DNA of 64,000 nt from Shinella fusca (GTDB taxonomy: Bacteria > Pseudomonadota > Alphaproteobacteria > Rhizobiales > Rhizobiaceae): positions 1 to 64,000 of the forward strand of contig NZ_JACHIK010000008.1 of NCBI RefSeq assembly GCF_014203155.1, read 5' to 3'. A model generated the notes under the pieces. It did no database searches, had not been told where the DNA came from, and worked only from the letters and a program-made list of their open reading frames with translations. Below, one piece after another: positions 43,314-59,605 of the stretch. Position numbers and translations under genes: made by a program. Every line of letters begins with the position of its first letter. Within the stretch, counting starts at the first letter, position 1.

Positions 43314-43931
43314 TCACGCCTTGGGCGCAGGGAACTCCGCCAGCCGCGCCGCATAGCGCGCCATGGTGTCGACCTCGAAGTTGACGAAGTCGCCCGCCCT
43401 GCGCTCGCCCCAGGTGGTGACTTCCAGCGTATGGCGGATGAGAAGCACGTCGAAGACCGCGCCGTCGACCGCGTTGACGGTGAGCGAGGTGCCGTCGAGC
43501 GCGACGGAGCCCTTCGGCGCGACGAAGCGCTCGAAGCCCTCCGGCGCGCGGATGCGGAAGCGGGTGGCGTCGCCCTCGGCCTCCACGGAGAGGATTTCCG
43601 CCCTGCCGTCGACATGGCCGGAGACGATGTGGCCGCCAAGTTCGTCGCCGATCTTCAGCGAGCGCTCGAGATTGATCTTCGTGCCCGCCTTCCAGCCGGA
43701 AATCGTCGTCAGCCGCAGGGCCTCTTCCCAGGCCTCGACCTCGAACCAGCGGGCGTTCGTGCCCGCCTCCGGCAGCGCCGTGACGGTGAGGCAGGTGCCG
43801 GAATGGGCGATGGAGGCGCCCATGTCGATGGTGGCGGGGTCATAGTTGGTGCGCACGCGCAGGCGCACGCCCTCGTTCATGGGCTCGACCTTCTCGACCG
43901 TTCCGATATCCGTGACAATGCCGGTGAACAT
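43314..43931 (-). CDS. ribE: Riboflavin synthase, alpha subunit
   Basis: A 205-residue enzyme with two lumazine-binding barrels: MFTGIVTDIGTV...SIAHSGTCLTV...INLERSL and GGHIVSGHVDGRAEI...VALDGTSLTVNAVDG...TTWGERRAGDFVNFEVD. It dismutates two lumazines to riboflavin. ATG 43931 overlaps the ribD TGA by one base (TGATG), so it is coupled to ribD. Confidence 0.95.
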   Translation of the reverse strand: MFTGIVTDIGTVEKVEPMNEGVRLRVRTNYDPATIDMGASIAHSGTCLTVTALPEAGTNARWFEVEAWEEALRLTTISGWKAGTKINLERSLKIGDELGGHIVSGHVDGRAEILSVEAEGDATRFRIRAPEGFERFVAPKGSVALDGTSLTVNAVDGAVFDVLLIRHTLEVTTWGERRAGDFVNFEVDTMARYAARLAEFPAPKA

Positions 43932-45235
43932 CACTCGTCTCTTTCGTATTCTTCGAAAATATCCGCGCCGTAGCGCGCCGTATGGCGAAGCGCAAAGCCC
44001 TGCGGCATCCGCCCGGACACACATGGGGATGCGATCCCGCCCTTGCCAATGGCCTTCGGGCCGGTGAACAGCATTATCCGGTCGACAAGGCCGGCGTCGA
44101 GGAAGGACCGCGCCGTCCGCGCCCCGCCTTCCACCAGCAGCGAGGAAATACCGCGCGTCGCCAGCGCCGCGAGAAGATCGTCGAGCCGGCGCGGATCGCA
44201 GATCAGCACCTCGACGCCCAGGGCCTCCAGCGCGGCGGCGCGGGCACGCCAGTCGCCGGGCACGGCGGCCGGGTTATCCCCCTCTGGCCTGCCGGCCATC
44301 TCCCCCTCAAGGGGGGAGATCGATGGAGAGATGGTTTCCTTCCCATCGCTCCGCGGTGCGGCAGATTCTTCGTTTTCTGAAGAGGAAAACGATGACTCCC
44401 AGCCAATCTCCCCCCTTGAGAGGGAGATGGCCGGCAGGCCAGAGGGGGGTGTTCCGGGCACATCCGCCTCCCCCTCCCGCGCCGCCACCACGATCACCGG
44501 CACGTCCCGCGCCGACCGGGCCAGGTTCGACGCCGACGGTAATTCCACCCGCGGGTCGAGCACGATGCGCACCGGCGAGCGGCTTTCCAGTCCCGGCAGG
44601 CGGCAGGTGAGCTCCGGATCGTCGGCGAGCGCCGTGCCGATGCCGATGAGGATCGCGTCCGTCTCGGCGCGCGCGACATGCACCTGCCCGCGCGAGACCG
44701 GGCCGGTAATCGCCACCTGCCCCTCGCCCAGCCGGCCGAGCATGCCGTCGCTCGAAACGGCAAGCTTGAGAGTCACATGCGGCCGCTTCTTCGTCTGGCG
44801 CGTCAGGTAGGCGGCAAGCGCCGCGCGGCCTTCCGCCTCCAGAACGCCCGTCTCGACCGCGATGCCGGCATCGCGCAGCATGGAAAGCCCCCTGCCCGCC
44901 ACGCGCTCGTCCGGATCGGTGACCGAGACGACGACGCGCGCAACGCCGGAGGAAATCAGCGCGTCGGCGCAGGGCGGCGTCTTGCCGTGGTGCGAGCAGG
45001 GCTCGAGGGTGACATAGGCCGTCGCCCCGCGTGCCGCCTCGCCGGCCATGGCCAGCGCCTGCGTTTCCGCATGCGGCCGGCCGCCCGGCGCGGTGACGGC
45101 CGAGCCGACGACCACGCCGTCCCTGACGATCAGGCAGGCGACGGAAGGATTGGTGGCTGTAAGACCGAGATTGCGGCGGCTGAGGCGGATCGCCGCCGCC
45201 ATGAAGCGCTCGTCGTCCGGCACGACGGCGGACAT
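43931..45235 (-). CDS. ribD: Bifunctional diaminohydroxyphosphoribosylaminopyrimidine deaminase/reductase with repeat-encoded insertion
   Basis: 434 residues; family members are usually about 370. The deaminase domain (1-145) has the zinc motif PHAETQAL and PCSHHGKTPPCADAL. The reductase domain has KLAVSSDGMLG, TDAILIGIGTALADDPELTCRLPG and LLVEGGARTARSFLDAGLVDR. Between VIVVAAREGEAD and ALEALGVEVLICD lies an extra stretch of about 58 residues (roughly 263-320) encoded by a palindromic intergenic repeat (44278-44449), in frame and without stop codons. It falls in a loop, so function may survive. ATG 45235 lies 2 bases after the nrdR stop codon. Confidence 0.93.
   Translation of the reverse strand: MSAVVPDDERFMAAAIRLSRRNLGLTATNPSVACLIVRDGVVVGSAVTAPGGRPHAETQALAMAGEAARGATAYVTLEPCSHHGKTPPCADALISSGVARVVVSVTDPDERVAGRGLSMLRDAGIAVETGVLEAEGRAALAAYLTRQTKKRPHVTLKLAVSSDGMLGRLGEGQVAITGPVSRGQVHVARAETDAILIGIGTALADDPELTCRLPGLESRSPVRIVLDPRVELPSASNLARSARDVPVIVVAAREGEADVPGTPPSGLPAISLSRGEIGWESSFSSSENEESAAPRSDGKETISPSISPLEGEMAGRPEGDNPAAVPGDWRARAAALEALGVEVLICDPRRLDDLLAALATRGISSLLVEGGARTARSFLDAGLVDRIMLFTGPKAIGKGGIASPCVSGRMPQGFALRHTARYGADIFEEYERDE
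44278..44449. repeat. Palindromic mosaic repeat, family B, inside ribD
   Basis: The ends CCCCTCTGGCCTGCCGGCC and GGCCGGCAGGCCAGAGGGG are inverted copies of each other. Inside are GGGAGATCG near the left arm and CAATCTCCCCCCTT near the right. The same ends and internal blocks are found in the intergenic copy at 59443-59594, and a half copy is at 51126-51166. Confidence 0.85.
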
Positions 45236-45237
45236 CC

Positions 45238-45717
45238 TCAACTATCCGCGCCCGGATCGCGGGCGATCTTGGCGGCGACTTCCGAAAGGATCTTCTCGAA
45301 GTCGTCGACATGGGAGAAGTCGCGGTAGACCGAGGCGTAGCGCACAAAGCCCACGTCATCCAGCGCCTTCAGCGCCTCCAGCACCTGGAGGCCGATTTCC
45401 TCGGAAGCGATCTCCGTCTCGCCGGAGCTTTCGAGCCGGCGGACGATCCCTGAGACCGCGCGCTCGATGCGGTCGCGGTCGACGGGCCGCTTGCGAAGCG
45501 CGATCTCGAAGGATTTCAGGAGCTTGTCGCGGTCGAAGGGAGCCTTTCGGCCCGTCTTCTTGACAACCATCAACTCGCGGAGCTGCACCCGTTCGAAGGT
45601 CGTGAACCGACCGCCGCAATCCGGGCAGATGCGCCGGCGGCGAATGGCGGCCCCGTCCTCTGCCGGACGGGAATCCTTCACCTGCGTATCTTCCGAACCG
45701 CAATAGGGGCAGCGCAT
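45238..45717 (-). CDS. nrdR: Transcriptional repressor NrdR
   Basis: A 159-residue regulator. It begins [22 protein letters not shown], then [20 protein letters not shown], a four-cysteine zinc ribbon, followed by an ATP-cone ([28 protein letters not shown]). It represses ribonucleotide reductase genes when dATP is high. It lies between glyA (9-base gap) and ribD (2-base gap) in a single operon. Confidence 0.97.
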
Positions 45718-59293: not shown

Positions 59294-59442
59294 CGTGGTA
59301 TCCTGAAATGCTGACGGGCCGCGCGGGAGGAACCCGGCGCAGCTACCCAAGAAAATCGCGCGGAAAAGCGCATGGCCGGGCTCGTTTGTCAAGGCTTGAG
59401 GGGTATTCGCCTGCGGAAGCAAAGCGCGTCGTCGCGGATTTA

Positions 59443-59594
59443 CCCCCCTCTGGCCTGCCGGCCATCTCCCCCACAAGGAGGGAGATCGGCTAGAAGCGAA
59501 GACGGCAATCAATAACAGCGTCAAAGTTTGGCGAAACGCCCCTACATCCAATCTCCCCCCTTGTGGGGGAGATGGCCGGCAGGCCAGAGGGGGG
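59443..59594. repeat. Palindromic mosaic repeat, family B (complete, intergenic)
   Basis: A 152-bp copy with CCCCTCTGGCCTGCCGGCC and GGCCGGCAGGCCAGAGGGG inverted ends and the shared blocks GGGAGATCG and CAATCTCCCCCCTT. It lies between aspS and the Nudix gene and is the intergenic counterpart of the copy in ribD. Confidence 0.8.
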
Positions 59595-59605
59595 TGCTAC
59601 AGCAC

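Follow-up and report, generated by a model that had tools for sequence, protein, structure and literature searches.

In Shinella fusca, the ribD gene contains a dispersed palindromic element in complete form, which is open, lies in frame, and adds 58 residues to the encoded protein. In our interpretation, which we regard as likely, this segment is a dispersed palindromic element of Rhizobiaceae whose in-frame insertion hit a permissive loop of the reductase domain, and the spacer between its arms inverts in place. The window, i.e., the whole stretch of DNA that was analyzed, comprises 64,000 nucleotides, and its relevant features are collected in Table 1.

Table 1. Positions of the ribD element, its parts, and associated features in the window
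Feature	Position	Strand	Remark
Complete palindromic element in ribD	44269..44457		Inverted repeat; genome-wide, about 40 related places
Arm 1, the right arm in ribD coding orientation	44269..44320	+	Two small hairpins possible
Variable spacer between the arms	44321..44405		Counterparts in G015 and G003 mutually inverted
Arm 2, the left arm in ribD coding orientation	44406..44457	+	
ribD codons supplied by the element	44276..44449	-	58 codons, residues 265-322
ribD, deaminase and reductase, 436 aa with the insert	43931..45241	-	Pfam PF00383, PF01872; fold match to RibD structures
ribE-like gene	43314..43931	-	ATG overlaps the ribD stop
Intergenic copy, used for comparison and as query	59440..59596		No open frame spans it with 60 nt on each side

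The arms of the ribD copy, 52 nt each, are 90% complementary and stand 85 nt apart, and the ribD reading frame continues without interruption across all 436 residues. Thus, the palindromic repeat in frame within ribD, as given in the preliminary description, is confirmed, and so is the number of about 58 added residues, with the repeat-encoded stretch starting at 44276 rather than at 44278. In the intergenic copy, the arms (59442-59489 and 59548-59595) are 48 nt long and 96% complementary. The two copies had been described as matching in both ends and internal blocks; the ends indeed align closely, whereas the middles do so only in part. Downstream, the stop codon of ribD overlaps the following ATG in the sequence TGATG (43933-43929). 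Because of this overlap, translational coupling to the following gene is plausible; of the linkage claimed earlier, the overlap is real and coupling itself is not shown. The name of this gene, which we take to be ribE-like, follows the preliminary description, with no family search behind it. In an Rfam scan of the window, only a tRNA reached the gathering score, and no family was reported at the ribD element.

A search of the S. fusca genome for the element yielded 109 blast rows at E<=1e-5, which were merged by hand into 40 places; this number shows that the likeness to the ribD repeat exceeds chance. Both ends are present in 33 of the 40 places. The core of these two-ended copies is 142-144 nt in 25 cases; the eight exceptions measure 108, 136, 137, or 163 nt, the ribD copy having the longest core (163 nt). 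The element as a whole is mostly about 155 bp long. Most of the 33 copies have ACCCCC...GGGGGT ends; no constant target-site duplication was seen among them, as judged by eye. Each of the 29 remaining full-length copies has at least one open frame among the six, so read-through is easy. For four of the 40 places, location within a gene, with conserved protein on both sides, could be demonstrated: cobN holds two of them, and ribD and a gene for a zinc-type alcohol dehydrogenase hold one each (31 of the 45 spanning open frames were covered by the Pfam scan). These additional in-frame copies answer the question, raised in the preliminary description, of whether other members of the family lie within reading frames.

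The two arms of one element are more similar to each other (on average 1.2 mismatched positions) than are the left arms of different elements (2.5), and unequal arm pairs are found in 10 of the 33 two-ended copies. Each arm is able to form two hairpins. Positions 6 and 15 of the arm covary (C-G 34, G-C 27, T-A 2, other 3; n=66), and selection for the hairpins could therefore be a source of arm conservation. Several other arm positions were fixed by the pattern used to find the ends, and covariation was counted at free positions only. As a separate observation, a half-element match occurs near the start of the annotated cadA gene of Neorhizobium galegae (L322, 1501-1577), where the frame was not checked.

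In the RibD protein, both the deaminase and the reductase domains are recognized by Pfam, in agreement with the claim that both keep their motifs. The AlphaFold model built from 59 sequences has a pLDDT of 87.3 and a pTM of 0.84 (a run limited to 20 close sequences reached a pLDDT of only 59.1 and was not used). It matches experimentally solved structures of RibD: 3zpc (Z 40.6, rmsd 2.2, 344 aligned residues), 2b3z (Z 39.4, rmsd 2.5, 347 residues), and 2g6v (Z 38.0, rmsd 2.4, 337 residues). The pLDDT falls below 50 only at residues 273-295 and 297-322, which the model places between a strand (249-253) and a helix (331-340). The insert had been assigned to a likely loop between conserved reductase segments, and the otherwise confident model supports this assignment; the insert is probably a floppy loop, its disorder being inferred from low model confidence. 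Since the genome search gave a single ribD (E<=1e-30), the enzyme with its insert is probably functional, as proposed before; no expression, peptide, or enzyme data are available. The PDB entries 8dq9, 8dqb, and 8dqc, titled as Klebsiella 3-dehydroquinate dehydratase, also match RibD in fold, and 8dq9 matches it in sequence as well; their title may be wrong.

The distribution of the insert was surveyed in 21 genomes of the genus, including that of S. fusca. The ribD element is in frame in four (G000, G015, G003, and G006), frame-broken in one (G012), reduced to the remnant PPSGLP in one (G008), and absent from the remaining 15. Among the insert-free genomes, RibD is 365-366 aa long in 14 and 376 aa long in one, so the whole loop in S. 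fusca is about 70 residues longer. The comparison with close relatives thus had the expected outcome: the segment is missing from 15 of 21 genomes, and the flanking protein is common to carriers and non-carriers and conserved in their alignment. Whether the insert had a single origin in the genus remains undecided, since support at the base of the tree is poor and three changes of the character state are needed. Of 13 plasmid records hit by the insert peptide, the top three are from Shinella.

The broken copy in G012 contains an internal tandem copy of the element, and the ribD frame is lost; the cobN gene of this genome is also out of frame at the element (L035/L052, L188/L209). The frame loss in ribD may be real or may reflect a sequencing error in a G run, and for cobN, too, either real damage or a sequencing error is possible. 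This genome is the one point in favor of ribD being a decaying pseudogene with a harmless repeat. We find this scarcely credible for S. fusca, given that no second ribD was found, the frame is kept in four of the five full insertions in the genus, the RibD flanks are 84-90% identical among carriers, and the predicted fold is confident.

Other genera have in-frame elements of this family in the corresponding ribD loop: they occur in g30 (G212, G267), g48 (G358), and g18 (G208, G311), as well as in Rhizobium esperanzae CNPSo 668 (L061). The family-level sample comprised 346 genomes, of which 335 gave matches, and among the matches listed, 20 ribD regions were read, being picked as full-length, long, or unusual. 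The arm letters vary among the ribD-loop elements of other genera. These data point to the loop as a permissive site that was occupied more than once; a single old ribD insertion followed by homogenization is not excluded for this first family. The same loop contains another repeat-like peptide, PSPR...GE...RRADEG and its variants, in g46 (L144, L148, L149, L150) and g48 (L153), with an inverted repeat in the corresponding DNA of L144 and L150 only. The contigs of L147, L158, L159, and L065 end at or just before the ribD loop, as expected if a repeat is located there; L158 and L065, whose contigs have the same length of 178,389, probably represent a single genome.

The two cobN sites provide further examples of coding insertion. 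An in-frame element is present at site 1 in G000, G015, G003, G020, and G006, and at site 2 in the same five genomes and in G005. Site 1 was resolved for 8 and site 2 for 18 of the 21 genomes; the others were missed by the search pattern. Altered copies occur as well: cobN of G012 is split at site 2, G008 retains a left-arm remnant at site 2, and G011 has a seemingly degraded in-frame copy at site 1, whose palindrome appears to have decayed to ordinary sequence. In RibD and CobN, the arms are read in one common frame; the alcohol dehydrogenase copy reads its left arm in a different frame, and all measured insert lengths are multiples of three. The dehydrogenase element is in frame in G000 and G020 (L211, L212), and a short loop occupies the site in G003, G007, G017, G018, and G019; this loop was resolved for 7 of 12 loci.

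Comparison of carriers shows that the two parts of the element evolve differently. The arms differ at 0-12 of 90 nt between carriers, although the flanks are only 72-92% identical in codons that encode the same residue, and the spacers are far more divergent than the arms. The extreme case is cobN site 2 of G000, G015, and G005, where none of the 90 arm positions differ, yet 22-28% of the same-residue flanking codons have changed; all three species have the same unequal arm pair. Some spacers resemble another spacer of their own genome more than they resemble the spacer at the corresponding site of other genomes, e.g., those of cobN1 and cobN2 in G000 (z 11.2) and of ribD and cobN1 in G006 (z 9.7). 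This within-genome likeness suggests that exchange between copies or fresh insertions may operate besides in-place inversion.

Reversal of the spacer is seen when the close species G015 and G003 are compared. Their ribD spacers, both of 84 nt, match as reverse complements (z 10.0, 62/85 identical positions) and not in forward orientation (z 1.4, 49/92). The cobN1 spacers, both of 81 nt, behave in the same way (reversed z 11.6, 62/82; forward z 0.2, 43/89), and the spacers of cobN site 2 have the same orientation in the two genomes (forward z 17.5, reversed 1.5). In the two flipped pairs, the lengths are equal and the frame is open either way. Among further syntenic copies, the spacer is flipped in 8 of 12 cases in G015/G003, and G018/G017, a closer pair, show this in 1 case of 9. 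The former count leaves out one pair with weak flanks, and the latter includes one pair that matches in neither orientation; elements were recognized at 36/39 loci in G015, 18/20 in G003, 15/20 in G018, and 11/18 in G017. The gene context of the 12 copies is undetermined, and since each of them in G015 is spanned by an open frame of at least 444 nt, we do not claim that they are non-coding. Where the two sides differ in the base just inside the arm, this base is swapped in six flipped pairs and kept in three unflipped ones (partial output). Three genomes in 4 to 7 contigs (G011, G016, and G019) could not be used for the flip test, since their yields at E<=1e-15 were just 2, 7, and 1 rows, respectively. 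G015 and G003 are sisters in the tree of RibD and CobN combined (94/97, below the starred level), whereas in the RibD-only tree G003 groups with G008 and not with G015 (81/63), so the sister relation suggested by these sequences is not firm.

All 14 inverted coding inserts are open. With codon shuffling, the chance of this is 0.61-1.00 for each and about 0.16 for the product, and selection for openness in both orientations is not claimed.

An alternative origin of these patterns is independent insertion or exchange at the same hot loops, which would explain the presence of the element, its near-identical arms, and its opposite orientations without any inversion in place. It gains from the differing arm variants in the ribD loop of g30, g48, and g18 and from the spacer similarity within genomes; however, the G015 and G003 spacers of ribD and cobN1 agree in length and sequence only when one of them is reversed, and in Rhizobium plasmids one recognizable spacer is found in two orientations at one syntenic site. 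The unequal cobN2 arm pair common to G000, G015, and G005 also speaks against it, with the reservation that unequal arms are not rare. We therefore hold this explanation to be unlikely as a full account, although it is the most serious of the competitors, and prefer inversion of the spacer in place.

Since G015 and G003 are drafts, Rhizobium plasmid records were examined. In records described as complete, the spacer of the element in the annotated hutH-hutG gap has one orientation in 10 and the reverse in 5, so that 50 of 105 record pairs are flipped, none of them being ambiguous. The set contained 40 records covering most of the query; the query and 18 of the 39 others were used, and two more were element-free. 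On the tree of the flanks (19 records, of which four failed the end pattern, their orientation being scored by motif), there are five changes of orientation, and well-supported branches force at least three of them. The two orientations do not cluster on this tree (500 of 500 shuffles gave as low a number), as expected under frequent flipping; exchange between strains could contribute. A plasmid copy from Sinorhizobium meliloti was considered for the flip test and rejected, as no inverted repeat is present there.

The flips in complete plasmid records argue against an assembly artifact. Errors across the inverted arms might be suspected in drafts such as G003, with about 100 contigs, and G015, with about 30, especially as some contigs end at the ribD loop. 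Yet the 30-contig G017 agrees with the 4-contig G018 at seven of nine sites, with one flipped and one unresolved, and we judge it very unlikely that the differences in orientation have this cause. In-place inversion of the spacer is thus well supported for the element family; for ribD and cobN it may be inferred only from the sequences of two drafts.

Intragenic invertons are segments of DNA inside genes that are flanked by inverted repeats and are found in two orientations. The ribD and cobN1 elements meet this description in the drafts of G015 and G003, where inverted arms flank a spacer that is open either way, and a reversible switch could be imagined, in which a dedicated site-specific recombinase inverts the spacer within a population and produces two variants of RibD or CobN. 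Unlike invertons, the differences observed here are between species and not within a switching population, and the intergenic hutH-hutG copy flips too, where a protein switch makes no sense. Moreover, a single flip among nine sites in the closer pair G018/G017 would be slow for a switch. Such a switch seems quite improbable to us.

The preferred scenario, with in-place inversion, can be outlined as follows. The dispersed element would have inserted in frame into the permissive reductase loop of RibD, and selection would then keep the ribD frame open, the extra peptide presumably being tolerated and not needed. Switching of DNA polymerase between the arms as templates would both homogenize the arms and flip the spacer, so that one process could account for the near-identical arms and the inverted spacers. 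Selection for hairpins and exchange between copies are possible contributors. More broadly, and with less confidence than even odds would warrant, we suggest that Rhizobiaceae harbor self-inverting coding inserts in which the arms are fixed and the spacer flips in frame. Loops of RibD and CobN would then change by segment reversal rather than by point mutation, possibly also within populations, and decayed copies would turn into ordinary protein, as seems to be the case at cobN site 1 of G011.

Several known systems share features with this element. Like miniature inverted-repeat elements (MITEs), the ribD element has terminal inverted repeats. Template switching that homogenizes the arms of inverted repeats and inverts the spacer, with changes of up to five neighboring residues, is described for coding DNA of yeast (PMC8604942); there, the inverted repeats are short and lie in genes, whereas here the element is dispersed, about 155 bp long, and has coding spacers of 57-87 nt. 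In Nematomorpha mitochondria, inverted repeats lie within functional protein genes and both arms encode conserved protein (PMC6649704), whereas the ribD element forms an added loop. Rhizobial genomes contain other palindromic repeats in dozens or more copies, among them RIME, Sm-repeats, and the AB/C palindromes (PMC2573895) and Br-REP1 and Br-REP2 of Bradyrhizobium (PMC5082802). In the excerpts consulted, all of these are described as intergenic, and the printed Br-REP consensus is, by eye, unlike the arms of the Shinella element. Among the literature matches listed, from which subscription literature is mostly missing, there was no description of coding palindromic repeats in rhizobia, nor of a dispersed palindrome that both lies in frame and has a spacer inverting in place. 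New here is the inversion itself, which, like the additional in-frame sites in cobN, in the alcohol dehydrogenase gene, and in the ribD loop of other genera, goes beyond the preliminary description.

The closest parallel is provided by the Rickettsia palindromic elements, which are about 150 bp long, occur in many copies, and lie in frame within genes in nearly half of the cases according to a review (PMC10969869). The Shinella element likewise is a dispersed palindrome, in about 40 places, and has entered unrelated genes in frame: ribD, cobN twice, and the alcohol dehydrogenase gene. The resemblance noted in the preliminary description thus holds at the level of behavior; homology was not tested, and membership is not claimed. 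The differences are a host from another bacterial order and the inversion of the spacer in place, which is not mentioned for the Rickettsia elements in the available parts of two sources (PMC10969869, PMC3733652). With this comparison, the range of protein-coding palindromic repeats grows beyond Rickettsia to include rhizobia and conserved enzymes, RibD among them; programs that call genes or search for domains should allow for inserts of this kind. A stretch of protein would here be rewritten at once, by reverse complementation of a spacer between fixed arms with the frame still open. As a single genus offers presence, absence, remnant, and decay for comparison at each site, it is directly testable in Shinella what happens to a repeat once it has become protein.
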